DNA of 64,000 nucleotides, from the NCBI RefSeq assembly GCF_021532275.1, contig NZ_JACBOT010000021.1, positions 310,001-374,000 on the forward strand, written 5' to 3'. The DNA comes from Brevibacterium sp. UCMA 11754. GTDB lineage: Bacteria > Actinomycetota > Actinomycetes > Actinomycetales > Brevibacteriaceae. Each line of letters opens with the position of its first letter. The first letter of the stretch is position 1. The notes under the pieces were generated by a model. That model made no database searches. It saw only the letters and a program-made list of their open reading frames with translations, and had not been told where the DNA came from. Both the position numbers and the translations under genes were made by a program. This document shows positions 12,036-55,151 of this stretch, in pieces.

Positions 12036-12317
12036 GTCTCTATATTTTCGCAATCGGACTTGCCCGACCATGAAGACCTCCCACCACCTCGGCGAGGAAA
12101 ACCCGACACTTGGGAGGGGGATTGCAGATCCGGCGAATCACTTGGTGATTGGCACGGGGCCGGACCCGCCGATAGACCAATCGGCGATCAGCCGCCTATT
12201 GTGAATGCGCAGCGGACGCCCGATAGCTCCGCTTCCAATGAACCACTTCGCGTGAACCGCTCTGGGTGGACTCGCGACGAGGACGAACCAAGACACGTCT
12301 ACTACTGAGGAGTCATC

Positions 12318-13306: not shown

Positions 13307-13335
13307 CCTCAGCTCTTCCCTGTTCTCTCCATAAC

Positions 13336-13352
13336 TTGACTCTATTGGTCAC
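13336..13352. promoter_or_regulatory. Candidate TetR operator 1
   Basis: The sequence TTGAC, seven bases, GTCAC forms an imperfect inverted repeat in the tetR/NmrA divergent gap. It matches the spacing of a second copy at 13379-13401. Binding by the adjacent TetR is inferred. Confidence 0.5.
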
Positions 13353-13378
13353 TTTACCGCAGGATGGATGTCGGCACT

Positions 13379-13401
13379 AAGTTGACCATTCCAGTCAACT
13401 T
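13379..13401. promoter_or_regulatory. Candidate TetR operator 2
   Basis: A perfect inverted repeat with 8-bp arms (AAGTTGAC and GTCAACTT) is separated by seven bases. Its TTGAC-N7-GTCA core is shared with the site 46 bp upstream. It lies between the divergent TetR gene and the NmrA-like gene, before the ribosome site of the latter. Confidence 0.6.
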
Positions 13402-13459
13402 GAAAGGGGTGCCTCCATCAGCACCGGTCTCGGACCGGCTTCAGCGAAAGGTCGCCGTA

Positions 13460-14320: not shown

Positions 14321-14351
14321 TCCTCCACGAGAACGCAGTGCTCCGCGCGGT

Positions 14352-15905: not shown

Positions 15906-15945
15906 GATCGTCGTTCCTTCAATCCTGTGTCTTCGGTTCTGAATC

Positions 15946-17079
15946 TCAGTCCTGTACGGTCAGCACGGGCTTGGCAACCAGCCCGAACTCCCGCAGGACG
16001 CCCAGCAGCTCCTGATGGCCAAGTGCCTGGCATCCGGAGGCGAACCCCACCCGCCGAGGTGCCTGCTGGGTCAGGTGGTAGGCGAAGTAGGCCTGCAGCA
16101 GTCCGGTCTGCTGATAATTGCTGTTTCCGTGGATGACACAATGTGCCCGTCCCAGAGGTCCACTGGCGTGGACCGAGTCGAGTGACTTGTTCACCAACGG
16201 GTTCTCCCTCGGCGGCATCTCGCTCATCACCTGGGCAGCAGTCTCGATGAGCACCTTGTCGCGGTCTTCATCTGACATGTCCTTGGTCTGTTCGAGCGCA
16301 TTGGCCACAATGACCGGAACACCCCGCATCAAGGGCGTATTGAACACGCCACCTTGAGCCTTCACATTGGCAACGCGAGGGTCGTTCTTGAACCAGACCG
16401 GGTGGCTGGTTCCGCCCCAGGGCAGGGACTGCGCCAGTTCGTGCTGGCCGGGAACGACAAGTGGAACCAGCCCCTCATTCGGATCGAATTCGGTGTACGC
16501 ATTGCGTTCGAGGTAGTACGCCTTCGAGGTCGCGGCATTGACGAGGATCGTCTGCGTCGAGGCGATCGTCGGGCTTCCACCCCAGAACACGGCGATGTCC
16601 AAGGTGTCGAGTCCAGGTTTCTCAAGACACAGGTTCGCTGCGATCTCGCCGATTGTGTACATCTGAGCGAGACCAGGTGAGAGGAGCAGCCCCTTGGCGG
16701 CGTATTTCTCTCCGAACTGCGTCTCACAGGTGAGCAGCCAATCCTGCTCACCGGAGGTATCCGTGTAATGAGCTCCTGCGGCCAGTGCCGCCTCGACGAC
16801 GGTGGGACTGTACTTGGTGAAGGGACCCACCGTGTTGAGCACAACGCTGGCTCCGCTGAAGAGCTCGGTAAGTGCCTCGACGGTGTGATCGACGGCTCGG
16901 ACCTCATAATCGGCGGTCTCGATCCCAGGGACGTTGGACTGCATCGACTCCCGAACACGGTCCTCGTTGCGGCCGGCTGCCACGAAAGGCACACCGTACT
17001 GACGAAGGTATTCGCAGATGATGCGGCCCGTATATCCGCTGGCTCCGTATACGACGACGGGCTTGTTCTGCTCAGGCAT
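15946..17079 (-). CDS. Saccharopine dehydrogenase-like NAD(P)-binding protein
   Basis: This 377-aa protein starts with a Rossmann motif VVVYGASGYTGRIICEYLRQYG. It carries ALTELFSGASVVLNTVGPFTKYSPTVVEAALAAGAHYTDTSGEQDW, the signature of saccharopine-dehydrogenase-like and trans-acting enoyl-reductase proteins of actinobacteria. These act on lipid or polyketide intermediates and not on lysine. AGGAG lies well placed before the ATG. It is the middle gene of an operon between an SDR and an acyl-CoA synthetase. The reaction is unknown; reduction of an acyl intermediate is a guess from context. Confidence 0.82.
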   Translation of the reverse strand: MPEQNKPVVVYGASGYTGRIICEYLRQYGVPFVAAGRNEDRVRESMQSNVPGIETADYEVRAVDHTVEALTELFSGASVVLNTVGPFTKYSPTVVEAALAAGAHYTDTSGEQDWLLTCETQFGEKYAAKGLLLSPGLAQMYTIGEIAANLCLEKPGLDTLDIAVFWGGSPTIASTQTILVNAATSKAYYLERNAYTEFDPNEGLVPLVVPGQHELAQSLPWGGTSHPVWFKNDPRVANVKAQGGVFNTPLMRGVPVIVANALEQTKDMSDEDRDKVLIETAAQVMSEMPPRENPLVNKSLDSVHASGPLGRAHCVIHGNSNYQQTGLLQAYFAYHLTQQAPRRVGFASGCQALGHQELLGVLREFGLVAKPVLTVQD

Positions 17080-17163
17080 AATTTTCTCCTACTCGTGAAT
17101 GGCGTTCAGGTGCACATGGGTATGGGCATGCAGATCTCAAATGGTTGGAAGCGTAATTACGGG

Positions 17164-17955
17164 TCACATGCCCATTCCCCCATCGACCTGCAGGGCGGCT
17201 CCGTTGACGAATCGTGATTCATCCGAGGCCAGGAACATCAAGGCATCCGTAATGTCTTCCTCCTCGCCCAAGCGACCCGAGGGAGTCAGATCGACGACTG
17301 CACCGACGGCAGCTTCCGGTGACTCGAAAAGACCCAGCTCGGAGACATCGTTGGCCAACCCGGCTCCCATCGCATTGGGGACCAGACCAGGGAAGATGCA
17401 GTTCACGCGGACCCCGTATCCCAGTTTTCCGCTCTCCATTGCGGCCACTCTTGTCAAGCGATCGATCGCTGACTTGGTCGCGGAATAGACGGAGATTCCG
17501 GGAAAGGCGATGGTCGCCGCCACAGAGGCGACGTTGATGATCGTTCCGCCGCCTTCTGCGGGCCCACCCGGTCGCATAGCACGCATTCCGTGTTTGAGGC
17601 CCAGGACCGTACCGAGAACATTGACGTCGAGCATCTTCTTGGCGTCAGCAGGATCGATATCGGTGATCAGACTGGTGATCTCCAGACCGGCATTGTTGAT
17701 GACAATGTCCAATCCTCCGAGTGCACCGACCGTTGAGTCGATCGCGGCCTGCCACGACGCATCGTCTGTGACATCGAGTTTGACGAAGTGGTTGCCCTCA
17801 CCCAGTTCCGAGGCAACCTCGGCGCCGCGGTCCTGCAGGTCGGCGATCGCCACCGTGGCCCCTGCAGCGGAGAGTGCACGAGCGTATGACTCACCAAGGC
17901 CCTGTGCGCCACCTGTGACCAAAGCCCTGCGCCCGGTCAGATCGTATGTTGACAT
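17164..17955 (-). CDS. SDR-family oxidoreductase
   Basis: This 263-aa classical short-chain dehydrogenase has the coenzyme motif ALVTGGAQGLGESYARAL and the structural NNAG. The catalytic serine lies in INVASVAA, and tyrosine and lysine in SVYSATKSAIDRL. The C-terminal end FVNGAALQVDGGMGM is typical of FabG/hydroxysteroid-dehydrogenase relatives. AAAGGAG precedes the ATG at 17955, so I rejected the longer frame to 18015, which would cover the operator. It is the first gene of the three-gene operon divergent from TetR and would interconvert a hydroxyl and a keto group on the pathway intermediate. Confidence 0.9.
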   Translation of the reverse strand: MSTYDLTGRRALVTGGAQGLGESYARALSAAGATVAIADLQDRGAEVASELGEGNHFVKLDVTDDASWQAAIDSTVGALGGLDIVINNAGLEITSLITDIDPADAKKMLDVNVLGTVLGLKHGMRAMRPGGPAEGGGTIINVASVAATIAFPGISVYSATKSAIDRLTRVAAMESGKLGYGVRVNCIFPGLVPNAMGAGLANDVSELGLFESPEAAVGAVVDLTPSGRLGEEEDITDALMFLASDESRFVNGAALQVDGGMGM

Positions 17956-18006
17956 TTTCGGCTCCTTTGCCTGTGATTTAACTGGTGCGACCAGCGTCAC
18001 ATTCAT

Positions 18007-18024
18007 TCTTGACAAGTGTCAAGA
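18007..18024. promoter_or_regulatory. Perfect 18-bp palindrome, candidate TetR operator
   Basis: The sequence TCTTGACAAGTGTCAAGA has 8-bp perfect arms around a 2-bp centre. It sits between the divergent SDR operon and the TetR gene. It contains a TTGACA hexamer on both strands that could double as a -35 element, so repressor binding would block transcription in both directions. Confidence 0.75.
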
Positions 18025-18075
18025 CCAATTGTCCAAACCATTGATCCAGGTTCGGTCACCAGCTAGCATGGAAGC

Positions 18076-18726
18076 GTGGCAAGCACTCAGACTGAGCAGA
18101 AGTCTGCCCGCAGCAGGAGGAGCACGGGCAGCTACGACGAACGTCGGATCAAGCTCGCAGAATCCGCCTTGCGGACCCTCGGCCAGCTCGGCTATGCGCG
18201 AACGAGCCTGCGCGATATCGCGGCGAACTCTGAATTCAGCCACGGCGTGGTTCATTACTATTTCCGCGATAAGACCGAACTCATCATCTTCTGCGTCAAG
18301 CACTACAAGACCCAGTGCATGCACCGTTATGACTCGGCCGTGTCAGAGTCCACCACAGCGGATGGACTGCTCACCGGATTCGCTGACAAGCTCGTGCAGA
18401 CGCTGTCGGAAGAGCCGTCGATGCACCGTCTCTGGTACGATCTGCGATCGCAGAGCATGTTTCAGGAGGCGCTTCGCGTCGATGTGTACGACATCGATCG
18501 TGGACTCGAGGACATGATCTGGCGGGTGGTGACCCGATACGCGGAGTTGAGCGAGAGTCGACCGATGATCGAATCGCGTGCCGCCTACACCATGTTCGAT
18601 GGCATCTTCGAAAGCGCGCTGCGGGATTTCCTTGCCGATCGAGCGGGCACGGTCGAGTGGATCAGAGCTCAGGTGACAAGCCTTCTTCCGGCGCTGTGCA
18701 CACCCGTGGACTCAACCTCGAGCTGA
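18076..18726 (+). CDS. TetR/AcrR-family regulator
   Basis: This 216-aa protein has an N-terminal basic stretch (QKSARSRRSTGSYDERR). The helix-turn-helix IKLAESALRTLGQLGYARTSLRDIAANSEFSHGVVHYYFRDKTELI follows (residues about 24-70). The rest is a helical ligand-binding domain. The GTG start lacks a strong ribosome site. It is divergent from the SDR/saccharopine-like/acyl-CoA-synthetase operon and faces a perfect 18-bp palindrome, so it most likely represses that operon, probably responding to an acyl-CoA or related intermediate. Confidence 0.88.
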   Translation: MASTQTEQKSARSRRSTGSYDERRIKLAESALRTLGQLGYARTSLRDIAANSEFSHGVVHYYFRDKTELIIFCVKHYKTQCMHRYDSAVSESTTADGLLTGFADKLVQTLSEEPSMHRLWYDLRSQSMFQEALRVDVYDIDRGLEDMIWRVVTRYAELSESRPMIESRAAYTMFDGIFESALRDFLADRAGTVEWIRAQVTSLLPALCTPVDSTSS

Positions 18727-18782
18727 TCGCCTGGCTGCTGCGGGCAACGGCGATTTCCACGGTCGCGACAGCATGATCGCCC

Positions 18783-20081
18783 TCACCCGGGCAGCAGCAC
18801 GATGATCGTGTGGATGAGAAGTCCGACCAGGGCTCCGATCACGGTTCCGTTGATACGGATGTACTGCAGATCCCGGCCGACGTAGAGCTCGATACGCTCG
18901 GCGGCTTCCTTCGCGTCCCAGCGTTCGATCGTGTCGGAGATGACGCTGGCGATCTCGGGGCCGAAGCTCTCGGCCAGGTCTCCGGCCGTGGTGGCGATCC
19001 TGTCATCGATCTTGGCGGCGAACTTCGAGTCAGCCTGCAGCCGCTGGGCGAACTCTCCGATGAGTTCCGAGATGCGTCCGCGCACCTCGCCATTGGGGTC
19101 GATGATGGCTTGGCGCAGGAGCTGCTTAAGGCTGCTCCAGATCTCGAGCACGGAGTCGACGACCCCTGACTGGCTGAGCAGGTCGTTGATGATGACCTCT
19201 GCCTTCTCCGACAGCGGAGTCTCCCCATTGAGGTCGTCGGAGAGGTCGACGAGCCAGGCGTCGAGGGCCTGACGGGCCTTGTGGTATTCGTTGTCGCGGA
19301 CGTCGGCGACCCAACCGAGCACCTCTCGCTGCAGCCGGTTCGACAGCTGCTCGTTGACGAAATCGGGGACCCAGGACGGTGCCCGATTGTGGACGATCTC
19401 ATCGATGACCTGCGGATTGTCGCTCAACCAGGAGTACGCCTCGGCGACGATGAGGTCGACAAGTTTGTGGTGCGCACCGTCGAGGACGATCTGGCGCAGC
19501 AGCTGCGCCAGCACCGGGGTCTTGCGGGTCGCGACCAGGCGCGGAATGATGACGTTCTTGGTCAGAGCCACGACGGATTCGTCGTCGATGCGAGCCAGCA
19601 CATATTCGAGCCCACCGGCCGCGCGGTCGACCACGAGGTCACGGTTGGCGGATCTGCTCAACCACTCACCGGCACGATGGGAAACCTGAGCGGACCGGAT
19701 CTTCGTCGACACCGCCTCGGCGTGGAGGAAGTTCGCGGCGACGAATGCGGACAGGCTCGCGCCCAGGGTGTCCTTCTTGCGCGGAATGATCGCGGTGTGC
19801 GGGATCGGCAGACCGAGCGGGTGGCGGAAGAGTGCGGTGACGGCGAACCAGTCGGCGATCGCACCGATCATCGCGGCCTCGGACGCGCGCGAGACGAAGC
19901 CCCAGACCCCGGTGTTGTCGGTGAAGATGTGGGTGATAAGGAAGATGATGGTGGCGAGGATGAGCAGCGACAGTGCCAGTGTGCGCATCTTGCGCAGACC
20001 CCGTCCCCGCTCCTGATCTTCCGGCGTCAGTTCGCTCGGACCGCCGAAGCGCGGCACGGACGGTGCTTTTTCGATCGACAT
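18783..20081 (-). CDS. DUF445 membrane protein
   Basis: This 432-aa protein has a membrane segment near residues 31-50 and another at the extreme C-terminus (GTVIGALVGLLIHTIIVLL), flanking a long helical middle. RASEAAMIGAIADWFAVTALFRHPLGLPIPHTAIIPRKKD is the DUF445 signature. No biochemical function is established for the family to my knowledge; some members are envelope proteins. A strong AGGGGGA ribosome site precedes the ATG. It is convergent with the TetR gene across 56 bp. Confidence 0.9.
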   Translation of the reverse strand: MSIEKAPSVPRFGGPSELTPEDQERGRGLRKMRTLALSLLILATIIFLITHIFTDNTGVWGFVSRASEAAMIGAIADWFAVTALFRHPLGLPIPHTAIIPRKKDTLGASLSAFVAANFLHAEAVSTKIRSAQVSHRAGEWLSRSANRDLVVDRAAGGLEYVLARIDDESVVALTKNVIIPRLVATRKTPVLAQLLRQIVLDGAHHKLVDLIVAEAYSWLSDNPQVIDEIVHNRAPSWVPDFVNEQLSNRLQREVLGWVADVRDNEYHKARQALDAWLVDLSDDLNGETPLSEKAEVIINDLLSQSGVVDSVLEIWSSLKQLLRQAIIDPNGEVRGRISELIGEFAQRLQADSKFAAKIDDRIATTAGDLAESFGPEIASVISDTIERWDAKEAAERIELYVGRDLQYIRINGTVIGALVGLLIHTIIVLLPG

Positions 20082-20169
20082 CGTTCCCCCTTGTCATCTG
20101 TCATCGACTTTAGCGAAGTCCCCGCCCAAGATGGTCATCGGCAGGCTGTGCCGAGGCTGGGAACCTGTA

Positions 20170-20220
20170 TCACGGCCCCGCTTCCTCCGTCACGGCCCCG
20201 CTTCCTCCGTCACGGCCCCA
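20170..20220. repeat. 20-bp direct repeat, two and a half copies
   Basis: TCACGGCCCCGCTTCCTCCG occurs at 20170-20189 and 20190-20209, followed by a partial third copy TCACGGCCCC. It lies in the 257-bp gap between DUF445 and the small TUDOR-like gene. No gene is visible in that gap. Confidence 0.9.
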
Positions 20221-20338
20221 GTTTCTGAAACCGTACATGAAACCGCAACTGAGGCCGCAAGAGCGGTCCGCCCTGTTGCCGATGGCCTCATCGTGTTTGT
20301 ATGGGAGAGACAACATTCGACGAATTGAGAAGGATGAC

Positions 20339-20557
20339 ATGGCGGAGAACTTTGCCGTCGGCGATCACGTGGGGTGGAACTCGGAGGCCGGCGAAGTCTC
20401 AGGCACGATCACAAAGGTCCACACCACAGACTTCGAATACAAGGGCCACAATCGTCGCGCTTCGAAGGATGAGCCGCAGTACGAAATCAAGAGCGACAAG
20501 ACCGACCACATCGCCGCCCACAAGGGCACGGCTCTCCACCGGATCGACAAGGAGTGA
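20339..20557 (+). CDS. DUF2945/HVA1-like TUDOR domain protein
   Basis: This 72-aa protein is MAENFAVGDHVGWNSEAGEVSGTITKVHT... with a C-terminal SKDEPQYEIKSDKTDHIAAHKGTALHRI. It matches the small DUF2945 family named after a fungal hypervirulence-associated protein, and the fold is a TUDOR-like barrel. Its function in bacteria is unknown. GAGAAGGA lies at good spacing before the ATG, so I rejected the in-frame extension to 20237. The downstream DUF488 gene overlaps by 4 bp (GTGA), so the two are co-transcribed. Confidence 0.85.
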   Translation: MAENFAVGDHVGWNSEAGEVSGTITKVHTTDFEYKGHNRRASKDEPQYEIKSDKTDHIAAHKGTALHRIDKE

Positions 20558-21099
20558 GCAGCTCGCGGTTCCTCACCATCGGCCATTCGAATCATTCCCT
20601 CTCGGAGTTCATCGACCTCCTGACCGAGAATTCCGCTGAGGTGGTTGTCGATGTCCGCAAATTGCCCGGATCGAAGAGGAACCCCCAGTTCAACGCGGAT
20701 ACTCTCTTCGATGACCTTGCCGAGTCGGGGGTGGAGCTGCGTCGGCTCGAAGGGCTGACCGGCAGGCGACCCGTGAACCATGACATCGGGTTCGAGGTCA
20801 ATGGGTGGTGGAAGAACCGCAGTTTCCACAACTATGCCGATCATGCCCTGACGGAGGAGTTCCGCGACGATTTCGACCGGCTGCTTGAGTGGGGCGCGAA
20901 CAGACGCAGTGTGCTGACGTGCTCGGAGGCCGTGTGGTGGCGCTGCCATCGGCGCATCATCGCCGATAACCTGCTCGCCCACGACTTCCCAGTCACCCAC
21001 ATCATGGGCAAGAACCAGACCACTGCGGCCGAACTCAGCGCGGGAGCCACCGTCGCCAAGGACGGAACGGTCACGTACCCAGCTACCGACGAGGAGTGA
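20554..21099 (+). CDS. DUF488 domain protein
   Basis: This 181-aa protein starts SSRFLTIGHSNHSLSEFIDLLTENSAEVVVDVRKLPGSKRNPQFN. It contains LTCSEAVWWRCHRRIIADNLL, the DUF488 hallmark with conserved C-x(5)-C-H-R. The enzymatic role is not established. It starts at a GTG overlapping the stop of the upstream TUDOR-like gene, with AAGGA in place, so translation is coupled. It is followed by the ArgE-like gene after 155 bp. Confidence 0.88.
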   Translation: MSSSRFLTIGHSNHSLSEFIDLLTENSAEVVVDVRKLPGSKRNPQFNADTLFDDLAESGVELRRLEGLTGRRPVNHDIGFEVNGWWKNRSFHNYADHALTEEFRDDFDRLLEWGANRRSVLTCSEAVWWRCHRRIIADNLLAHDFPVTHIMGKNQTTAAELSAGATVAKDGTVTYPATDEE

Positions 21100-21254
21100 G
21101 GCAGTAGTCTCAATTGACGAGACCTAACAGTCTCACCAACATTTCGGACGTAGTGTGTCGGGGTCTGGTCACCGCTGTCCCGCACGGGAGGGATCCGACC
21201 AGGTTCCGCTTCAGGCTGACCAGACGGTTCATCCCCGTACAGTCAGGAGCAGCC

Positions 21255-36892: not shown

Positions 36893-38506
36893 TTGTCTAG
36901 CTTCTCATCGTTAGCCAGATCCTCGGCGATCATGACTGCGGGAACCCTGACCTCGAGAATCCTCGGACTGGTCAAGGCCTTCTTGCTGGCGCTGGCGCTC
37001 AGCGTCACCGCGGCCCAGGCCGATGCCTTCGACGTCGCCAACAAGGTGCCCAACACCCTGTACATGCTCCTGGCCGGAGGTGTCGTAAACGCGGTACTCG
37101 TCCCACAGCTCGTGCGGGCGACGAAGCGCAAGGACGGGGGCCAGGACTACACCAACCGCCTGCTGACGCTGTCGTTCATGATCCTTGGCGCCGTCGGTGT
37201 CATTGCCACTCTTGCCGCGCCACTCCTCGTATGGCTCTACTCCTCAGGGTGGGGGCCGGATCAGATGGCCCTGGCCACAGCCTTCGCCTACTGGTGCCTG
37301 CCACAGGTGTTCTTCTACGGCCTCTACACCCTATTGGGACAGGTGCTCAACTCAAGGTCCTCGTTCGGCCCGTATATGTGGGCACCGGTGCTCAACAACG
37401 TCGTCGCCATCGTTGGTCTCCTCATCTTCATCCTAGTCTTCGGCTCTGACAGTGCGTCCCCGCATCATCTGGGCACCTGGACCCCGGACAAGGTCGCCCT
37501 CATGGGCGGATCGGCTACCCTCGGTGTCGTCGCTCAGGCCCTGATCCTCATCTGGCCACTGAAGCGGATCGGCTTCAAGTACCGGCCGACCTTCGGATTC
37601 CGCGGAGTCGGCCTCGGCACCGCCGGAAAGGTGGCGTTCTGGACGTTCTCAGCAATGCTTGTCGGGCAGCTGGGATTCCTCGTCATCTCCCGGGTCGCCG
37701 CCGGAGCTTCGGACCCCGGAGCGGGCAATGCTTCGAACGCCGCCTATTCCTACGGCTATCTCGTCTTCATGCTCCCGCACTCGCTCATCGCGGTGTCACT
37801 GGCCACCGCACTCTTCACTTCGCTGGCCAGGAACGCCGCCAACAACGACACCGAAGCGGTCGTCGGCGACTTCTCCATGGGCGTGCGCATGGTCGGATTT
37901 GTGAATTCGTTTGCTGTGGCAGCTCTTATCGTTCTCGCCGCCCCGGTGGCGATGGTGATCGCCCCCAACGGCCGAGAACAGGCCATGGCCGTGGGACTCG
38001 TCATCATTACAATGGTGTTCGGGCTTATTCCCTTCAGTGCAAACTACCTGGCGCAGAGGGTGTTCTACGCCTATGAGGACGCGAAGACACCGTTCCTCAT
38101 CCAGCTCCCGCAGGTGATCTTCCAGTCCCTGGCGGTGCTCTCTGCATCGATCTTCCCGAAATCGGTCACGGTCGCCATCATCGGTCTGACGATGAGTCTG
38201 GGCTACCTGTTCGCGATGATCCTCTCGTTCGTGCTCCTGTCGAAGCGCCTGGGCGGGATTGATCTCCGCACCATCCTCGGCGCCCATGTGAAGTTCTTCG
38301 TAGCAGCTTTGCTTGCCGGGTTGGCCGGTTATGGGCTGCTCTTCTTCTTCCCAGACTTCGCGCTGTCGGGCCAATGGCAGGCGTTCGTCGTCACTGCTGG
38401 AGTCGGCACTCTCATGCTCATCGTCTTCCTGGGAGCATGTTATTTGCTGAAAGTCAGAGAGTTGCATTCGATTATTGGCGTGGTTGCTGGAAAACTAAGA
38501 AGATAG
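36893..38506 (+). CDS. murJ: Lipid II flippase MurJ
   Basis: This 537-aa polytopic protein of the MOP superfamily has about 14 helices. It begins SSFSSLARSSAIMTAGTLTSRILGLVKAFLLALAL and contains ADAFDVANKVPNTLYMLLAGGVVNAVLVPQLVRA and PFSANYLAQRVFYAYEDAKTPF, the MurJ/MviN signatures. It flips lipid-linked peptidoglycan precursor to the outer face. It starts at TTG after AAGAGG. The mycobacterial homologue carries a fused intracellular pseudokinase; here that domain is encoded by the next gene. Confidence 0.95.
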   Translation: MSSFSSLARSSAIMTAGTLTSRILGLVKAFLLALALSVTAAQADAFDVANKVPNTLYMLLAGGVVNAVLVPQLVRATKRKDGGQDYTNRLLTLSFMILGAVGVIATLAAPLLVWLYSSGWGPDQMALATAFAYWCLPQVFFYGLYTLLGQVLNSRSSFGPYMWAPVLNNVVAIVGLLIFILVFGSDSASPHHLGTWTPDKVALMGGSATLGVVAQALILIWPLKRIGFKYRPTFGFRGVGLGTAGKVAFWTFSAMLVGQLGFLVISRVAAGASDPGAGNASNAAYSYGYLVFMLPHSLIAVSLATALFTSLARNAANNDTEAVVGDFSMGVRMVGFVNSFAVAALIVLAAPVAMVIAPNGREQAMAVGLVIITMVFGLIPFSANYLAQRVFYAYEDAKTPFLIQLPQVIFQSLAVLSASIFPKSVTVAIIGLTMSLGYLFAMILSFVLLSKRLGGIDLRTILGAHVKFFVAALLAGLAGYGLLFFFPDFALSGQWQAFVVTAGVGTLMLIVFLGACYLLKVRELHSIIGVVAGKLRR

Positions 38507-42782: not shown

Positions 42783-43919
42783 TTGACTCACAACCCACAC
42801 CCGCAGTTTTCACGCGGGAACAGCTCTGAGGTGTTGCCCAACATCAAATCTCAGATGGCTCGTCTGGGGCTCAATGTCGGTCAAGCCGAATCTGTCGAGT
42901 TCGATCGGACCTTCGAACTCGCCGTCCGGCAGTTCCAACAGGTGCGAGGGATTCTCTGTGACGGTGTGATGGGCACAGAGACCTTTTCAGAGCTCGAACG
43001 GGCTCGGTATCAACTCGGAGACCGTGTCCTCCGCTATGACCCTGTGAGAGTCCTTACAGGCGACGATGTACTCAGACTGCAGCGGACCCTCGCCGGTCTT
43101 GGGTTCTACGCAGGCCGCATGGACGCGGAGTACTCAGCAGTCACTGACGCCGCCGTCAAAGAGCTGCAGATGAGTCTCGGCACCAAGGTCGACGGAGTAG
43201 CAGGACCACAGACACTGCGCGGACTCGACGCGATTGACCGCAAACAGGACACCGGGAATCTCTTTGCTCTCGAGGAACGAGCACGAGTTGCAGCTTCTGG
43301 GACCTCGCTTGCCGGACGAACCTTCGTCATCGAGGCCGCGACTACAGTTGTAGATTTCGAAACTCTTCCAATGACAAGGGCTCAAGCCGACACCGAACGG
43401 CGCATCACCACCGATATCGCAAGTCGGCTTGCCGGGCGACTTGAAGCTGTCGGGGCAGGAGCAGTCGTTCTCGCCGGCGACGCTGTCGAGGTCAACAAGG
43501 CCGACCAACTCGGTGCTTCTGCCGTCATCACAGTCACCGCGGACATCAACAAGTCCACAGACGCCAACGGAATCGCGACCTTCTTCTTCGGACATGAGAC
43601 TCATTCGGACATCAACTCGCCGACAGGTGCACGTCTGGCAGAACTCATTCAAAGCGAACTCGCTGCCCGCACAGGAATGCGTGATTGCAGGAGCCATGCT
43701 CGCACTTGGTCTTCTCTGAAGCGGCTCCGAACTCCAAAGGTTCACGTAGTCGCCGGCTACCTCACTAACGCCGACGATCTCGATAACCTCGAAGACGCCA
43801 ACGTACGAGATGCGATTGCTGACGGCATCGCGGCTGGCCTGCAAAGACTATACGTGCGCGAAGACTCTGACCCTGAAACCGGGACCCTCAGCCTCGCGGA
43901 GATCAAGGCGTACAGCTAG
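42783..43919 (+). CDS. cwlM: CwlM-like N-acetylmuramoyl-L-alanine amidase homologue
   Basis: This 378-aa protein without a signal peptide has two peptidoglycan-binding repeats (about 15-75 and 85-150: AVRQFQQVRGILCDGVMGTETF, AVKELQMSLGTKVDGVAGPQTL) and an Amidase_3 fold from about 175. The usual DPGHGG zinc-ligand strand reads VIEAATTVVDF, and the second histidine motif reads SAVITVTADINKS, so key zinc ligands are missing. ANGIATFFFG, TGMRDCRSHARTWSSLKRLRTPKVHVVAGYLTN matches CwlM. In mycobacteria CwlM is a cytoplasmic regulator of MurA encoded between trxC and parB, the same place as here. The TTG start has no clear ribosome site. Confidence 0.85.
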   Translation: MTHNPHPQFSRGNSSEVLPNIKSQMARLGLNVGQAESVEFDRTFELAVRQFQQVRGILCDGVMGTETFSELERARYQLGDRVLRYDPVRVLTGDDVLRLQRTLAGLGFYAGRMDAEYSAVTDAAVKELQMSLGTKVDGVAGPQTLRGLDAIDRKQDTGNLFALEERARVAASGTSLAGRTFVIEAATTVVDFETLPMTRAQADTERRITTDIASRLAGRLEAVGAGAVVLAGDAVEVNKADQLGASAVITVTADINKSTDANGIATFFFGHETHSDINSPTGARLAELIQSELAARTGMRDCRSHARTWSSLKRLRTPKVHVVAGYLTNADDLDNLEDANVRDAIADGIAAGLQRLYVREDSDPETGTLSLAEIKAYS

Positions 43920-43935
43920 AACCTCAATGCCTGAG

Positions 43936-43949
43936 GTTTCACGTGAAAC
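43936..43949. other. parS site 1, perfect 14-mer
   Basis: GTTTCACGTGAAAC, identical to the ParB-binding consensus core, 16 bases after the cwlM stop codon. A 6-bp hairpin (ACCTCA/TGAGGT) overlaps its left edge. Confidence 0.95.
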
Positions 43950-44440
43950 GCGTGCTCGTTAGCCCTCAACGTAGCTCGGTCGCCGACGCCTAATCCGGCG
44001 CACACTCCAATCTGCCGTCTCCAATCCAGTCGCAGATTGCTGACTTCTTAGTCTGAAGACTTCGTTGCGTCTCGTCCGCCATCCCGTGTTGCGAATCGCA
44101 ACTCATTCTATTTCGTAGAGCCAGGCGTATCTGTACCGGGATGAGTGAGACGATACTGACAGATTCGTCACCCGCGCCTAATCGATTCCGCTGCATACGA
44201 TCTGACGAATTCCAAGTGCCACTCCGGGCCCACGGATCTCATCCTCAAATGTCGACTATTCCCACTAGGCAAATTTGGTCTCCACTGACGTTTGATTGAA
44301 TGCCCGGTTGGCAAGCCATCCCGTGACTAAGGGCAACACAGCTACGGGAGGATCTCCTGGGTGCAGTAACGACAACTAACCGTATGCGTCATCGACATTG
44401 CTCAAATGGATATAACGATCTACCGGCTCACCCGTCGGCG

Positions 44441-44454
44441 GTTTCACGTGAAAT
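44441..44454. other. parS site 2, one mismatch
   Basis: GTTTCACGTGAAAT; the last base differs from consensus. It lies 505 bp from site 1, about twice the common interval. Confidence 0.85.
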
Positions 44455-44656
44455 ATGCCTCGTGAGTAACACACAAGCCGAATGTCGGAGCTCGACGCCG
44501 CACAGCAATATTTACCGGTCACCTCGATGCGGGGGCGATATCAGAGACGATACCGGCACCCAACAGAGATAGTCGGGGCTCACTCCAGACAACGGCATGA
44601 ACTCTAAGTACCTCCAGTCACCGGTCAACGGCTGACAGTGACCACAGTTAGCATAT

Positions 44657-44670
44657 GTTTCACATGAAAG
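44657..44670. other. parS-like site 3, two mismatches
   Basis: GTTTCACATGAAAG; the central CG and the last base are changed. It is 216 bp from site 2 and probably binds weakly. Confidence 0.55.
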
Positions 44671-44880
44671 ATGCGAAACTCCACAACGTCCAAGGTTCCC
44701 ACTACCTCGACCGAGAGATGTCTCAATTACTATCTAAAGAATGGGGCGCTCCTGGGAATGCATAATCATCTTTCCGCGCCGCTATCCTCGAAGCCTGATT
44801 TGGCTGCGGCAAACACCGCGTCGGACTTACGAGGAAAACGAGACAATGTTCAGGTGAACCAGCCCCCAGCAGCCCTCCAT

Positions 44881-44894
44881 GTTTCACGTGAAAC
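44881..44894. other. parS site 4, perfect 14-mer
   Basis: GTTTCACGTGAAAC with a T on the left as in the 16-bp consensus. It is 224 bp from site 3. Confidence 0.95.
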
Positions 44895-45135
44895 TGCACT
44901 CGCCCGCGCATAGCCCAGATGTGCTCGTCAAGAATCGGACAGGCGCACGCTGCGCAATAGTCGTCAGGCCACATTCTACGTCGAACCAAAAAGGCGCGGT
45001 TCCAGTGAATACGACGGTGAGACTCGTAGGGCTGACATGGTGAGCCAAGGCATATACGAAGAGGACCTCTACGAACCGACATCTGTCACTCAAGCACGGG
45101 CAGCCTCGGCCGCCACTTGTTCAGTACAGCGAGTA

Positions 45136-45149
45136 GTTCCACGTGAAAC
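45136..45149. other. parS site 5, one mismatch
   Basis: GTTCCACGTGAAAC; the fourth base is C. As far as I recall, a variant with this change serves as a natural parS inside Bacillus spo0J. It is 255 bp from site 4. Confidence 0.85.
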
Positions 45150-45243
45150 ATTCTTCAATACCCGATCGACAAGGTCGGTCTAGAGGCCCGCAAGGCATAC
45201 GAGATTTCAGGTGCCTACGAAAGCAGCGAACGAATCGAGCTCA

Positions 45244-45257
45244 GTTTCACGTGAAAC
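45244..45257. other. parS site 6, perfect 14-mer
   Basis: GTTTCACGTGAAAC, only 108 bp from site 5. It is the one site that breaks the near-250-bp spacing by adding an extra copy. Confidence 0.95.
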
Positions 45258-45390
45258 GATCATGCTCCTTTGCAGGATAGGCAGAAGTTGAGTACAAAGA
45301 CGACGCGGAGATCCCACGTCAACCGCTCAATCGCTGGCACGTAGAGACTACTCGGCGGTGAACACACTCAGCGAGGTGTTTCGCCCCAGT

Positions 45391-45404
45391 GTTTCACGTG
45401 AAAC
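45391..45404. other. parS site 7, perfect 16-mer
   Basis: TGTTTCACGTGAAACA when one flanking base on each side is included, the full 16-bp consensus and the best site in the island. It is 255 bp from site 5. Confidence 0.97.
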
Positions 45405-45678
45405 ATCGAGCAGAATGCTGGTGACGGCATCGACAGGTTCACACATCGGCCGCAGCCACCAACAGTCGAAGGTGTCCTATTACAAGGTCAATGCGAACTG
45501 CGCACTGACTCATTTGGCCCCTCACCAGAATTCGAGTCAGTTGCCGAGCATTAGCGCACGTGCCGAATGAAAGCGTGCCGGTTGTGAATTCTCACCAGCG
45601 AATGCAGGAGATACATATAGGGGCTCTACCCGGGTGATGACGAAGTACGGAGCGCCTGACTTCGAACAGGAGGGAGCC

Positions 45679-45692
45679 GTTCCACGTGGAAC
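45679..45692. other. parS-like site 8, symmetric double change
   Basis: GTTCCACGTGGAAC; both half-sites carry the same T-to-C change, so it is still a perfect palindrome. It is 288 bp from site 7. Confidence 0.7.
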
Positions 45693-45922
45693 ATTCGCTC
45701 AAGCGAAACACCGCTGGAGGGCAGCTCGGTAGAGATGGAATGCGCACGTTGGTCGGATCGAGGGCACTCAGACTCGGAAGGCCCATGCCTTGGGAAGAGC
45801 GAACGCCTGAAATTCGCTCCTCTCAGTTGAACCGCGTGGCCTACCTAGCTGCCTCAGGTTGAGTTGCTCCGGGAACCAGCTCCGCAATATCGTATATGCC
45901 AACGGCGAATATGGTCGTCATC

Positions 45923-45936
45923 GTTTCACGTGAAAC
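45923..45936. other. parS site 9, perfect 14-mer
   Basis: GTTTCACGTGAAAC followed by A. It is 244 bp from site 8 and 532 bp from site 7. Confidence 0.95.
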
Positions 45937-46176
45937 AACCGTCGACCGCCAACAATTTTCGGAGTACCAGCGCAAAATTGCTCAAGCTAAGGCCGCGTTC
46001 TCGTGCGTTGCAAGCAGTCTAGGGTTGGGTTCTCAATGACCAGATGAGAAGTCCTCCGTGTCACGCGCAAGTCACGCGCTGCAAGTTGCCTCGAGCGGTA
46101 TAGACACTGCCCGAACACTCGGATTCACGTTGACCGAATACTACCCAGGAACGATGGGCGACACTGAGGATGCGTC

Positions 46177-46190
46177 GTTTCACGTGTAAC
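46177..46190. other. parS site 10, one mismatch
   Basis: GTTTCACGTGTAAC; one A-to-T change in the right half. It is 254 bp from site 9. Confidence 0.8.
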
Positions 46191-46436
46191 CCATCCGCAG
46201 GCGATGCGTCGTCAGAAGTGTAAATCTGTATTAGTCCGGGAGGAGTGTGAATCATGCGGTTGTCCGAGTTAATGCCCTCCACACAGCAGGACACCTCCGC
46301 AATCGAAGGCCTGGGGATTGAAGGTCAGAACTGCCAATTGCAGTCGTGCCTATTTCGCTTCTGAGCGACTTTCGTCACTCTGCGGCCAAACTCGTTGACC
46401 ACCAACCCTCAAAAAAGGGTGGACTTCCTGGTAGCC

Positions 46437-46450
46437 GTTTCACGTGAAAC
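46437..46450. other. parS site 11, perfect 14-mer
   Basis: GTTTCACGTGAAAC. It is 260 bp from site 10 and 514 bp from site 9. Confidence 0.95.
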
Positions 46451-46687
46451 CGTCGCCATCACCGACCAGGAAGGCCGCTCAATCCCGAAATCACTATTAC
46501 CGCTACCAAGTACCCATTTAGTGCAGGAGAGCGTGTTCTGTCTCGACGTCCCTTTTCAATAGATGGAAGTAGACACCCAAGCACGCCTCTCTCAGTACCG
46601 AAACGCTGAAATCAGGTGGGCCTACGCAACATGAGCGCTATTAAATCGCCATTGGCCAAGAACGCGGCGCAATCTTAGTGGCAACAA

Positions 46688-46701
46688 GCTTCACATGAAA
46701 C
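46688..46701. other. parS-like site 12, two mismatches
   Basis: GCTTCACATGAAAC; the second base and the central CG are changed. It is 251 bp from site 11. Confidence 0.55.
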
Positions 46702-46897
46702 ATGCATTACCAGGTGATTTCGCGGAGCCTGCCGCTGCGAATTGGCTGGAAGCATCGCTGAGAATGATTAGACCGCCGGCGCAAATGAACGACATAGCCA
46801 CGTCTTCCCGTTGCCACCAACGACGTGATCGACGGCAAGTTGGCCGGAGGCGAGCAGACGCAGACACACTCACAATGGAAACCGTAGGTTTGCCGAT

Positions 46898-46911
46898 GTT
46901 TCACGTGAAAC
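46898..46911. other. parS site 13, perfect 14-mer
   Basis: GTTTCACGTGAAAC with a T on the left. It is 210 bp from site 12 and 461 bp from site 11, the last site in the non-coding island. Confidence 0.95.
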
Positions 46912-47133
46912 GATCGCAAACGGCCTGACCGAGCGCGTTGACTTGCCACGTACGGGCAATTTCCGTGGCCGCCATCACCATCCGGGAAGCCAAATGGGGA
47001 AGCCCATACCCCCCGCGCTCGGCATGGCAGTCAACAGGCCCAAAGACAGAGCCATATCCCCATCGAATAGGGCCTGACTAACTCGGGGAGGTGAATTTCC
47101 TAGACCAACTCCGAAGACAACCTGAGCGGGGGT

Positions 47134-47188
47134 GAAAAGAAGTTGGACGGGTGACAATGAACAATGTCATCCTCACTCGCCCAACTTC
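47134..47188 (-). terminator. Intrinsic terminator of the parAB operon
   Basis: On the minus strand, reading away from parB, a 16-bp stem (47173-47188 with 47139-47154, two mismatches) is followed by a TTTT run. It begins 16 bases after the parB stop and separates parB transcription from the parS island. Confidence 0.75.
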
Positions 47189-47204
47189 AAACAATCTGCG
47201 GGAG

Positions 47205-48950
47205 CTATTCCGCCGGCTGCTCAACTCCAAGCAAGCTGAGGATACGATCGAGGTCGTCTTGGTTAGCGAATTCCACGCTCAGCTTGCCCTTCTTCTTTCC
47301 GACCGTGATGTTGACCTTAGTATCAAGACGATCGCCCAGGCGTTCAGCAACTTCGATAAACTGAGGTGCAACACGGGTGGTTGCACGTGAAACATTCACG
47401 GAGTCGCCACGGTTAAGAAGTACTACGGCTTCTTCGGACGCTCTCACAGAGAGTCCCTCAGCAACGATGCGCTGAGCAAGAACCTCCATGTGCTCCGGTT
47501 CGCGAAGGCCCAGAATCGCACGAGCATGTCCAGCCGAAATGACGCCAGCAGCTACACGTCTTTGTACCAACGGGGGCAACCGAAGCAGGCGAAGAGTATT
47601 GGAAATCTGAGGGCGAGAACGTCCAATGCGTTCGGAAAGCTCCTCCTGTGTGCAGCCGAAGTCCTCGAGCAACTGGCCATAGGCAGCAGCCTCCTCCAAC
47701 GGGTTCAGTTCTGCTCGGTGCAAGTTCTCAAGCAGAGCGTCCCGCAAGAGGTCTGTGTCGTCAACGTAGCGAATAATCGCAGGGATGGTTGAAAGACCTG
47801 CATCCTTCGTCGCCCGAAGACGACGTTCACCCATGATGAGTTCGAAGCGTTCGTGATCGCTTGGCTTCTGTCGGACAACGACCGGCTGCAGCACACCGAT
47901 CTCGCGGATGCTGTGCACAAGTTCACTGAGCTGATCTTCGTCAAAGAAGGTACGTGGCTGACGAGGGTTGGCATCAATGCGGTCAACGTCGATCTCGCCG
48001 AATTCTGTATCAGGGATCGAATCGACTCCCGCACGCTCAGTATCTTCGCTCGCTACCGAGCCGTCGTCTTCGTTACCGGAGTCAGGGCTCGACGAAGCGG
48101 ATGAAGATGCCGACGCAGGAGTCACTTCATCTGTAGTCGACGAGTCCTCTATCGTGGCCTCTTGTCGAGCTTCATCGAAGACCTCATGGCCTGACCTGTA
48201 TACCCCGGGATGGGTCTCCAGCACATCGTCGGCCTTTGTCGACTCCTCGTCAGCACCATCTGCGGTCGAGTACACAGGTGTCGCTTCGACGTCGGGTTCA
48301 GCAGTTTCAACGACAGATGCTTCCATGTCGGCTGCACTGTCGAGCTCCGGTTCCGCCGTCCGATCTACTGGCCCGGTCGCGGGTGCCTCGCTCGTCGCCT
48401 TGGTGCTCGAAGCATGAGTTGCAGTCTTGGTTCCTGTCGAGGTCTTAGCCTTCGATTTCGCAGGCGTCGACTTCGCAGAAGAGCTTTCTGTCGCTCCGGT
48501 CTTCGCTGGGCTGGTTTTAGCCGTTGCGGCCCTTTCCCCTGAACCGGCCTTCTTCGTCGTAGATTGAGACGCGGCGGGCTTGGTCGAGGTTGATCCGGTT
48601 GCCTTCTTTGCAGAGGCATTTTTCGCTGCCCCACTCTTCGCAGCCGTGCTCCCCGAAGTGGTGCTCTTCGCCGGGGACGACTCAGAAGCAGGTGCATCCG
48701 TCTTAGCAGTCTTCGACGTCGAAGACGCGGGTGAAGTTCCGGCCTTAGGCTTGCGCTTGCGTGAGGACTGCATGGAGGCTGCAGGATCTGTGCGAACGGC
48801 CCGAGGTGCCTTCGGCTCTTCTGTGGTCTGCTTTGCCTCTTCAGGCTCGCCACCGGAGAAGAACACGTCAACTGGTCGGTCGCTCGACGCCGCATCCGGA
48901 ATCAAAGCGCCCAGACCACGACCCAATCCACGCTTCCTGCGTTCAGCCAC
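47205..48950 (-). CDS. parB: Chromosome partitioning protein ParB
   Basis: This 581-aa protein is long for the family (usually about 280-400). The N-terminal ParA-contact tail is [15 protein letters not shown]. Residues about 21-316 are low-complexity: Ala/Ser/Thr/Lys-rich to about 190, then acidic. The ParB CTPase domain starts near 317 ([32 protein letters not shown]) with GERRLRA (374-380) and ENLHR (408-412). The helix-turn-helix is [26 protein letters not shown], and a dimerisation tail follows. It binds parS, closes as a CTP-bound clamp and slides. The GTG follows GAGGAG and overlaps parA by 8 bp. A parS site lies inside its own 3' coding sequence. Confidence 0.96.
47380..47393. other. 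parS site 14, one mismatch, inside parB
   Basis: GTTGCACGTGAAAC lies within parB, where its reverse complement encodes NVSRAT. It is 482 bp from site 13, again about twice the common interval. Confidence 0.8.
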
Positions 48951-49869
48951 GATTTACTCCTCGTTGTGCGATTTCTTCGGCTGCTTCCCGATAGGACAAA
49001 GCGCCACTGGAATGGGGGTCGTACGAAATGACAGTCTGTCCGTAGCTCGGAGCCTCTGAAATGCGCACGGAGCGGGGAATCGAGGATGACAGGACCTGCT
49101 CGGGGAAATGAGTCCGTACATCATCCGCTACTTGGGCGCTGAGGTTGGTCCGCCCGTCATACATCGTCAAAAGGATTGTGGAGATCGCCAATTTAGGATT
49201 GAGATGCTTCTGGATGAGCTGAATATTCTTCAGCAGCTGGCTCAAACCCTCAAGCGCATAGTATTCGCACTGAATCGGGATGAGCACTTCCCGGGCGGCG
49301 ACGAACGCATTGACTGTCAGAAGGCCCAAGCTCGGAGGGCAGTCAACAATGACATAGTCCACTCGACTTCCCGCTGCAGCCTGTTCATCGAGATAGACAT
49401 TCAGGGACCTCTGCAGGCGCTGCTCTCGAGCGACAAGAGACACCAGCTCGATCTCGGCCCCGGCCAGATCAATGGTCGCCGGCACACATTTGAGAGTCTC
49501 GAAGTCCGGGCACTGCGCTACGGCTTCGCGCATGGGTACGTCATCGATGATCACATCGTAGATGCTGGTGACTTCCGAATAGTGGTCAATGCCTAGAGCG
49601 GTGCTGGCATTGCCCTGAGGATCGATGTCGATGAGCAGGACGTTGAGATTCTGATTCGCCAGCGCAGCGGCGATATTCACAGCGGTCGTGGTTTTCCCGA
49701 CGCCGCCCTTCTGGTTGGCGATCGTGAAGATCCGGGTAGAGTCTGGTTTTGGAAAACTCACCTGGGACAGTCGATCTGCGCGTCGATTGTCGCGCGCGAT
49801 TGCAGCACCTATGGGAGACGACTCGTCCATGATCGGCATTCGGCGCACTCCATCATCCATTGGTTTCAC
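48943..49869 (-). CDS. parA: Chromosome partitioning ATPase ParA
   Basis: This 308-aa protein is a Walker-type ATPase with the deviant Walker A motif [22 protein letters not shown], Walker A' [12 protein letters not shown], and Walker [18 protein letters not shown]. It binds DNA non-specifically as an ATP dimer and is released by ParB, pulling the origin apart. The N-terminal region of about 45 residues before the ATPase core is typical of actinobacterial ParA. The start is uncertain: the GTG at 49869, the ATG at 49860 and another ATG at 49839 are in frame, and none has a clear ribosome site. Confidence 0.96.
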
Positions 49870-53350: not shown

Positions 53351-53478
53351 CGTCCACAAGTAACAAGCGTGTAGTTTTCCACATGGTTATCCACCAGTGT
53401 GGAGGATTACTGGGATGACTCGTCAGTTCTCCACAAACTGTGGAAAACTATGTGGAAGTCATACACAGGTGTGGACCA
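53351..53478. promoter_or_regulatory. DnaA-box cluster upstream of dnaA
   Basis: DnaA-box-like 9-mers crowd this stretch: CGTCCACAA (53351), TTTTCCACA (53375), TTATCCACC (53387), TTCTCCACA (53427), and on the minus strand TTTTCCACA (53439-53447), ACTTCCACA (53451-53459) and TGGTCCACA (53470-53478). None is a perfect TTATCCACA, though several differ by one base. They suggest dnaA autoregulation and possibly part of a bipartite origin. The 415-bp gap to rpmH holds no gene. Confidence 0.6.
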
Positions 53479-53516
53479 TGCCAATAAGAAACTACGAAAA
53501 CGGAGGAAGATTGACG

Positions 53517-55151
53517 GTGTCGAATTCCAAGAATGAGCTCATCAGCCAATGGCGGACGGTGGTCTCGACCCTGGATCAGGACCCCAGTCTCACCGCTCAT
53601 CAGAGAGGCTTCCTTTCGCTTGCTGTGCCCAAGGCTCTCGTCGACAACGCATTGGTCCTGCTTGCTGTCCGGGATGAGCACACGCGCAGAACCATTGAGA
53701 CTCGTCTCCTCGGGCCTCTGACCAGGGAGTTCTCTCATATTCTTGGTTTCGAGGTGACCTTCGGGTTCGTCGTCGATCCCGAACTCGACGTTCCGATCAG
53801 GTTCGAAGATCTCATCGGGGAACCCACACCGGGATCACCCATTGAAATCGATCCGGAGACATCTACTTCGGCGATGGGATCTACCGGGTCTCCGGCCTAT
53901 GCACCGTCACAGACTGCGAACGCTCAGCCTCAGACTCCGGCGCCTTATAACCGCGCGCCACATCCGCAGCCGCAGATGCCCAGGTACGAGGACACCGGGC
54001 CAGCGCCCGGCAACGGGGCACCTGTGGAAAGAACGACGCGAGAGATGAAGATCGCCGAGGCGACCGCCGCCCAGCCGACTCCACCGGTCGAGGTTCCCGG
54101 CGTCGCCCAGCTCAACCCCAAGTACACCTTCGACACCTTCGTCATCGGGGCGTCCAACCGCTTCGCCCATGCTGCGGCCTTCGCCGTGGCCGAAGCGCCG
54201 GCCAAGGCCTACAACCCGCTGTTCATCTACGGCGATTCGGGGCTGGGAAAGACACACCTCCTGCACGCGATCGGGTACTACGCGACGCAGCTGTTCCCCG
54301 AGATCAGAGTGAAATACGTCTCGAGCGAAGAGTTCGTCAACGACTTCATCAATACGATCGGTTCTTCGAAGACTTCGAACTCCCTGCGACCAGCATTTCA
54401 GCGTCGCTACCGCGAGGTCGACATCCTGATGATCGATGACATCCAGTTCCTGCAGGGCAAGGACGCGACGGTCGAAGAGTTCTTCCACACATTCAATGCT
54501 CTGCACAATGAGGTCAAGCAGGTCGTCATCACCTCTGACCAGCCCCCGAAGATGCTCAAGGGCTTCGAGGAGCGACTGCGCTCACGGTTCGAGTGGGGCC
54601 TCCTGACGGATGTGCAGCCCCCGGACATGGAAACGCGCTTTGCGATTCTGCGGCGGAAGGCGGCCGGCGAACAGCTCGATGTTCCCAATGAAGTGCTCGA
54701 ATACATCGCCTCGCGGATCTCCTCGAACATCCGCGAGCTCGAGGGAGCTCTCATTCGTGTGACGGCCTTCGCCAACCTCAACGATCAACAGGTCGACGTC
54801 AGTCTGGCCGAGACCGTCCTCAAGGACTTCATCACCCAGGACGACACTCCAGCCATCACCGCTGCCGACATCATGGGTCAGACGGCTGCCTACTTCAGCC
54901 TCACCCTCGATGATCTGTGCGGCACGTCCCGATCACGCACCCTGACCACTGCTCGCCAGATCGCCATGTACCTGTGCCGTGAACTCACGGAGCTGTCGCT
55001 GCCGAAGATCGGACAGGCATTCGGCGGACGCGATCACACCACCGTGATGCATGCGAACAAGAAGATTCGAACTCAAATGGCTGAACGACGGGCGGTCTAC
55101 ACTCAGGTCACCGAGTTAACAAACCGCATTAAACAGCAACATCGCCTATAG
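53517..55151 (+). CDS. dnaA: Chromosomal replication initiator DnaA
   Basis: This 544-aa AAA+ protein has an N-terminal DnaB/partner-binding domain, then a Pro/Gln-rich linker of about 90 residues. The ATPase has Walker A YGDSGLGKTHL and Walker B VDILMIDDIQFLQGK. The DNA-binding domain carries DDLCGTSRSRTLTTARQIAMYLCRELTELSLPKIGQAFGGRDHTTVMHANKKI. It melts oriC and loads the helicase. The start is a GTG ten bases after GGAGG; a TTG at 53511 is an alternative. The longer frame from 53397 runs through DnaA boxes and is not used. Confidence 0.97.
   Translation: MSNSKNELISQWRTVVSTLDQDPSLTAHQRGFLSLAVPKALVDNALVLLAVRDEHTRRTIETRLLGPLTREFSHILGFEVTFGFVVDPELDVPIRFEDLIGEPTPGSPIEIDPETSTSAMGSTGSPAYAPSQTANAQPQTPAPYNRAPHPQPQMPRYEDTGPAPGNGAPVERTTREMKIAEATAAQPTPPVEVPGVAQLNPKYTFDTFVIGASNRFAHAAAFAVAEAPAKAYNPLFIYGDSGLGKTHLLHAIGYYATQLFPEIRVKYVSSEEFVNDFINTIGSSKTSNSLRPAFQRRYREVDILMIDDIQFLQGKDATVEEFFHTFNALHNEVKQVVITSDQPPKMLKGFEERLRSRFEWGLLTDVQPPDMETRFAILRRKAAGEQLDVPNEVLEYIASRISSNIRELEGALIRVTAFANLNDQQVDVSLAETVLKDFITQDDTPAITAADIMGQTAAYFSLTLDDLCGTSRSRTLTTARQIAMYLCRELTELSLPKIGQAFGGRDHTTVMHANKKIRTQMAERRAVYTQVTELTNRIKQQHRL

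Follow-up and report, generated by a model that had tools for sequence, protein, structure and literature searches.

According to published accounts, Corynebacterium glutamicum has ten parS sites, nine of them intergenic, in one origin-proximal cluster that spans 35 kb and lies 73 kb from oriC, with three ParB propagation zones and SMC loaded from the cluster; one site suffices for segregation (PMC7083940). Eight parS sites are scattered over approximately 0.75 Mb in Bacillus subtilis, whose ParB also loads SMC (PMC8357415), and five effective sites give three ParB peaks in Caulobacter crescentus (PMC10387095). ParB–CTP (cytidine triphosphate) clamps load at parS and slide until DNA-bound roadblocks halt them, and the same model paper raises the possibility that SMC loading benefits from the separation of chromosomal sites and describes single compact clusters as commoner in plasmid systems (PMC10387095). 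Here, we describe a parS island in a 64,000-nucleotide stretch of Brevibacterium sp. UCMA 11754 (contig NZ_JACBOT010000021.1, positions 310,001–374,000; hereafter the window), where it fills the gap between a cwlM-like gene and parB. Both it and the C. glutamicum array are actinobacterial single clusters; however, the Brevibacterium island packs 14 sites into 3.46 kb, is free of genes, and lies 6.0–9.5 kb from the start of dnaA, a distance that refers to dnaA and not to a mapped oriC. It shares its palindrome family with B. subtilis and, with C. crescentus, the possession of a chromosomal ParABS system with several near-origin sites. The F plasmid sopC and similar plasmid centromeres have many ParB sites packed beside parB as short tandem repeats, whereas the Brevibacterium island has non-repetitive spacers of ~250 bp and chromosomal-type proteins. 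The kind of system is known, a ParABS centromere in a compact gene-free variant; what is new is that its sites are spaced more evenly than random and, as the unexpected part, that its spacer DNA is hyperdivergent. None of the titles and abstract openings listed by our literature searches concerned Brevibacterium parS arrays or fast-evolving parS spacers; an earlier publication may exist.

The window was scanned for GTTTCACGTGAAAC, allowing three changes at most, with 100 shuffles as the null. Exactly 14 parS-type matches were found, all within positions 43,936–47,393 (seven perfect, four with one change, and three with two), compared with 2.25 expected, and none of the 100 shuffled windows reached 14. 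Thirteen lie in the cwlM–parB gap and one (47,380–47,393) inside parB. A preceding sequence-only reading of this DNA had given the same number, grades, and placement, and was correct in every count. It had also proposed a compact, gene-free array, and this holds: the gap is non-coding to a codon model, and the island accounts for every one of the 11 sites of at most one change that the 4,740,092-base assembly (42 contigs) contains, leaving none of the equally strong sites elsewhere whose existence that reading had considered. At up to two changes, the rest of the assembly yielded two two-change matches, both on other contigs, compared with five for a reversed control pattern. An assembly artefact, likewise considered, is very unlikely because islands of similar length occupy the same position in independently assembled related species, several of which are single-contig assemblies.

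The sites are regularly placed. Median spacing in the window is 247 bp, and the array is significantly even (p = 0.0005). Across 42 arrays of at least six sites each, 35 were more evenly spaced than expected from uniform placement (p < 0.05), and the median coefficient of variation of spacing was 0.41 versus 0.86 under the null; since the arrays are related, they do not amount to 42 independent tests. The spacings showed no clear peak of helical phasing.

The DNA between the sites was compared with three sister species of the window (coded G002, G005, and G045). The flanking genes are 92–99% identical to all three, except for the part of parB encoding its linker (81–87%). Nearby intergenic pieces share 85–100% identity, whereas individual spacers share 38–71%, and in G005 one spacer is almost wholly deleted. 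For G002, G005, and G045, respectively, mean spacer identity is 0.56, 0.60, and 0.52; identity at four-fold degenerate (four-fold) sites in nearby genes is 0.86, 0.87, and 0.85; and identity of the parS 14-mers is 0.93, 0.90, and 0.88. Shuffled or reversed islands align only at 0.40–0.43, and the spacer homology between sisters is therefore real but heavily eroded. The candidate view that spacers are at random level between sisters was rejected (0.54–0.62 versus 0.40–0.43 for shuffled or reversed islands), as an earlier shuffled baseline had been inflated by cheap gaps.

The same was seen in the 21 closest species pairs, which come from several sub-clades (the pairs share species and are not independent). 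Spacer distance was 2.3–5.5 times the four-fold-site distance in all 21, and in 18 of them the parS 14-mers were 88–98% identical and the spacers 46–73%. In two distant pairs the ratio was 1.9–2.1, the spacers there being saturated. Our own codon-model gene caller delimited 77 intergenic regions measuring 80 bp or more in ~204 kb of the contig; 51 of them had a mappable counterpart in G002, and 43 had one in the G045 sequence used, which covers part of this region. The island is the most diverged of them against G002 (none of the 50 others was less conserved) and the second most diverged against G045 (one of 42 was less conserved). Intergenic class averages in this region are 0.87–0.96 identity, and four-fold identity over 44–48 genes averages 0.85–0.89.

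Detectable similarity of the island is confined to sister species, where it is colinear and, short minus-strand matches aside, keeps the same strand; for this reason, the spacer change looks like fast vertical change rather than import. Inversion or shuffling of spacers between palindromes was rejected on the same colinearity. Eight of the 12 spacers common to the window and locus L047 differ by at most 5 bp in length, and the spacers carry 2.4–4.1 insertions or deletions (indels) per 100 observed substitutions; a guarded spacer length is not claimed, as this indel rate is not demonstrably below that elsewhere. At four-fold sites, parA and trxB are better conserved than cwlM and parB, the pattern expected from a local gradient in rate. 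Across the spacers of 43 loci, AAAA, CCCC, TTAA/TAAA, CATG, and CACG are depleted and AATAG is enriched, relative to a first-order model alone.

The features of the locus are given in Table 1. All 30 open reading frames of at least 40 amino acids in the gap were negative in the codon model, which was trained on 14 window genes whose own scores (+0.22 to +0.53) are positive by construction. Promoter-like sites in the gap are not in excess (2 found, 1.7 expected from shuffles), and Rfam and tRNA scans of the window gave no matches. The hairpin downstream of parB coincides in part with the most conserved non-parS stretches of the gap and is not among the calls of a consensus terminator scan. The product of the cwlM-like gene, a name taken over from the sequence-only reading, matches Amidase_3 (4.6e-18) and PG_binding_1 (1.6e-23) in Pfam. 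ParB consists of a long, low-complexity N-terminal linker rich in Lys, Ala, Ser, and Thr, followed by its three Pfam domains, and its translation contains GERRLRA, a motif with a role in CTP binding. On the far side of parA, dnaA (53,397–55,151; Bac_DnaA, 1.3e-70) is preceded by rsmG and yidC-type genes and followed by dnaN, a recF-like gene, gyrB, and gyrA; an R3H gene and a thioredoxin-reductase-type protein were also confirmed nearby by Pfam. The window sits in a 463-kb contig carrying dnaA, gyrA, and gyrB, and the genome encodes ScpB. Because the palindrome is canonical, parA and a three-domain ParB adjoin it, and it lies in the origin domain, the island has every appearance of a canonical chromosomal ParABS centromere.

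Table 1. Features of the Brevibacterium parS island and its borders (window coordinates)
Feature	Coordinates	Strand	Details	Basis
parS island	43920..47204	none	non-coding gap, 3285 bp, GC 54.5% (window 60.9%)	
cwlM-like gene	42783..43919	+	N-acetylmuramoyl-L-alanine amidase; left border of island, convergent with parB	Pfam
parB	47205..48950	-	581 amino acids	Pfam ParB_N, HTH_ParB, ParB_C
parA	48943..49869	-	308 amino acids, Walker-type ATPase	Pfam AAA_31 from residue 46
Hairpin	47139..47188	-	strong, just downstream of parB; probable terminator	z -5.3, 0/200 shuffles
parS	43936..43949	none	perfect core	window scan
parS	44441..44454	none	1 change	window scan
parS	44657..44670	none	2 changes	window scan
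parS	44881..44894	none	perfect core	window scan
parS	45136..45149	none	1 change	window scan
parS	45244..45257	none	perfect core; least conserved of 13 among sister species	window scan, species comparison
parS	45391..45404	none	perfect core	window scan
parS	45679..45692	none	2 changes, palindrome still perfect	window scan
parS	45923..45936	none	perfect core	window scan
parS	46177..46190	none	1 change	window scan
parS	46437..46450	none	perfect core; identical in 6 species compared	window scan, species comparison
parS	46688..46701	none	2 changes	window scan
parS	46898..46911	none	perfect core	window scan
parS	47380..47393	none	1 change, within parB coding sequence	window scan

Across the genus, 52 of 57 Brevibacterium species, including that of the window, could be assessed; those left out were three with a locus interrupted by contig breaks (G012, G013, and G034), one at a contig end (G038), and one in which no ParA was found (G051). 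Sites with at most one change occur in all 57 genomes. Comparison of the cwlM–parB gap among relatives, a check named in the sequence-only reading, bore out the array: in 43 of the 52 species the gap exceeds 1.5 kb (range 1.8–4.1 kb) and holds 3–14 sites with up to two changes, its sequence being near the unrelated baseline between clades (0.42–0.44). In the other nine it measures 88–889 bp, and 1–4 sites lie inside parB/parA, where most island species have one. For a tree built from five proteins, the island state was defined as a gap above 1.5 kb with at least five sites of at most one change, and the fewest state changes were four; branching order is uncertain at depth, where the branches are long. 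The main clade (36 rows) has islands throughout; in a second (seven rows), four have islands, one has three sites in a long gap, and two are unscorable; and a third group (11 rows) has mostly small gaps and also contains two species whose gaps measure 1.8 and 2.3 kb. The small-gap species G023 (loci L069 and L213–L220) carries ten perfect sites on nine contigs, a scattered layout, and eight of the stretches flanking its sites show no similarity to one another. The ParB linker (48,051–48,860 in the window) measures 90–180 amino acids in the nine island-less species and mostly 225–408 in island species, with L053 (103) and L079 (167) as exceptions; linker length was not retained as a trait co-evolving with the gap, the correlation (rho 0.54) being confounded by ancestry and having exceptions. 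In G029, the parA match (G029:C1:3908916-3909836) contains one in-frame TAA, perhaps a sequencing error or a pseudogene.

We consider it likely that the island is a ParABS centromere that serves ParB as an untranscribed loading platform in which spacer sequence is unconstrained. It would be the only place found in the assembly for specific, strong ParB loading, with each of the 14 sites, ~250 bp apart, loading ParB–CTP sliding clamps. As the stretch is gene-free, presumably silent, situated between convergent genes, and bounded towards parB by a strong hairpin, the clamps could accumulate and bridge and not be swept off by transcription. The predicted outcome is one dense, uninterrupted ParB domain, possibly a condensate, within 10 kb of dnaA, which ParA would pull and which would be used for SMC–ScpAB loading; as such, the island would be a chromosomal exception to the pattern of single clusters in plasmids. 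Spacer sequence is apparently irrelevant, and we conjecture that its fast divergence reflects locally faster base substitution, acting on unconstrained DNA, within the untranscribed stretch that ParB would cover. More tentatively, and with less than even confidence, the island could be a bacterial counterpart of the centromere paradox, in which a ParB-loaded centromere becomes a local substitution hot zone and selection holds the position and number of parS; ParB occupancy or replication conflicts might impede repair, or selection might drive spacer turnover. A compact natural centromere with ParB loading predicted to be confined to one 3.4-kb, presumably untranscribed stretch offers clear-cut conditions for testing models in which SMC loading benefits from separated sites, and the small-gap and scattered-site species of Brevibacterium are natural controls. 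A mutational cause of the hyperdivergence would link mutation rate to occupancy by the partition complex; a selective one would make it, to our knowledge, the first sign of fast bacterial centromere evolution.

Several observations weigh against this interpretation. In three of the 21 close pairs (L081–L088, L063–L087, and L048–L070), the sites are just 55–72% identical and the spacers are near the unrelated level, owing to either site turnover or alignment failure. At four-fold sites, yidC and the gene at 36,893–38,506 are as low as cwlM and parB, or lower, in several comparisons. The transition/transversion ratio of the spacers is ordinary (0.79–1.25), and there is thus no mutator signature. 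A dip in GC content at third codon positions (GC3) in cwlM/parB is also present in the nine island-less species (-0.072 versus -0.104 with the island) and was dropped as proof of local mutation. Even spacing was lacking in six of ten arrays from other genera (four were even). The island is also dispensable in the genus, because island-less species have few sites, mostly in parB/parA, and those of G023 are scattered. Compact clusters may also persist between convergent genes just because keeping them there costs little.

Other explanations concern the speed of the spacers. They may have diverged through selection or exchange and not mutation, by recombination that homogenises the flanking genes between species but spares the island, replacement from distant donors, or selection for dissimilarity, an account we find doubtful. 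Exchange between these species is real: the window and G045 are 98–100% identical at four-fold sites in ten of 11 genes at ~11.3–21.1 kb, compared with 77–94% in most others, pointing to a probable recent exchange between the two species at ~11,300–21,100. In addition, ParA and CwlM four-fold identities disagree in some pairs (e.g., 0.99 versus 0.79 for L059–L093). However, the sister-like, colinear similarity of the island gives no sign of distant donors, the slow four-fold baseline extends over 44–48 genes and is not confined to the flanks, and tracts replacing cwlM or parB would often bring the island along. It is also unlikely that the spacers merely display the true neutral rate, nothing being accelerated and other non-coding DNA and four-fold sites being more constrained. 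The spacers are without known constraint and lie between convergent genes, and convergent intergenic regions are indeed somewhat less conserved than the rest (0.88 versus 0.91–0.93, window versus G002), a few short ones coming close to the island at 0.60–0.77. Yet, given the distance ratios above, this account requires strong purifying selection at most four-fold sites and, given the ranking of the island among intergenic regions, constraint in nearly all intergenic DNA as well.

Two further explanations concern the origin of the gap. Long non-coding bacterial stretches are often decayed or missed genes, and ordinary origin-proximal parS sites could have survived by chance in a decayed gene region. 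This is very unlikely, as no frame gives a coding signal, the gap keeps to its length range in all 43 island species even though its sequence is near the unrelated baseline between clades, and most long gene-free runs in the neighbourhoods examined hold parS arrays. The sequence-only reading had likened the array to a plasmid centromere built into the chromosome, and single compact clusters are said to be commoner in plasmid systems (PMC10387095); we found no support for this origin and regard capture from a plasmid as extremely improbable. ParA and ParB are encoded at an ordinary rsmG–parA–parB locus near dnaA, the Pfam-checked neighbours are chromosomal housekeeping genes, the cwlM–parB–parA neighbourhood recurs across a genus that includes small-gap relatives, the contig is not a plasmid replicon by its gene content, and the parS sequence is canonical. 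Plasmid class Ia centromeres consist of tandem iteron-type repeats, whereas the island contains no tandem iterons (every repeat family with four or more copies consists of parS cores and flanking letters) and no long repeats among its spacers. Plasmid class Ia ParA carries an N-terminal DNA-binding domain (PMC7022226), and Pfam detected no helix-turn-helix family in the ParA of the island at E ≤ 0.001. ParA type, gene order, and the lack of tandem repeats together make a plasmid relic improbable; no search of plasmid collections was made.

Beyond the genus, we examined 173 par loci using the same codon-model gene caller; it broke up at least three islands that were already known (L051, L081, and L090). 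In 69 of the loci, parB adjoins 1.5 kb or more of gene-free DNA containing four or more sites, and 64 of the 69 have a convergent far flank. Such stretches were found in 39 of 53 Brevibacterium loci, none of three from other genera of its family, 13 of 17 in the family coded f6, eight of 14 in Micrococcaceae, all seven in f11, one of 12 in f3, one of 11 in Microbacteriaceae, none of 29 in Streptomycetaceae, and none in the remaining families of the set. These fractions are not prevalences, because many f3, f6, f11, and f17 loci were chosen with parS arrays in mind: those of f3, f17, and part of f11 were taken for many sites or by list order (genome G304 supplied two of the f11 loci), and those of f6 were added after the Arthrobacter islands had been found; the Micrococcaceae loci were not chosen for parS. 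The 2.7 Mb examined contained 14 further gene-free runs of 1.5 kb or more, and eight of these also had four or more sites. A parS stretch free of genes is thus a recurrent actinobacterial layout, of which the window holds one of the denser examples, and it is less exceptional than the sequence-only reading had implied, being frequent in Micrococcaceae and in families f6 and f11. In Arthrobacter, Pseudarthrobacter, Paenarthrobacter, Sinomonas, Cryobacterium, and families f3, f6, and f11, the same kind of non-coding stretch measures 1.6–6.8 kb, carries 4–17 sites, and mostly has a convergent neighbour; unlike that of the window, these stretches are often longer, with wider and uneven spacing. 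The comparison of fast spacers rests on Brevibacterium, as the Arthrobacter set held no close pairs. In Nesterenkonia sandarakina (L177, 6534–7855) and a Kocuria sp. (L161, 6823–7965), the stretch separating parA from the ParB core match, in or beside the linker-coding part of parB, is rich in parS sites; in L177, the gene caller left part of this stretch uncalled. One genome of family f17 (G247) contains 27 perfect parS sites, and the 18 that are listed span ~235 kb.

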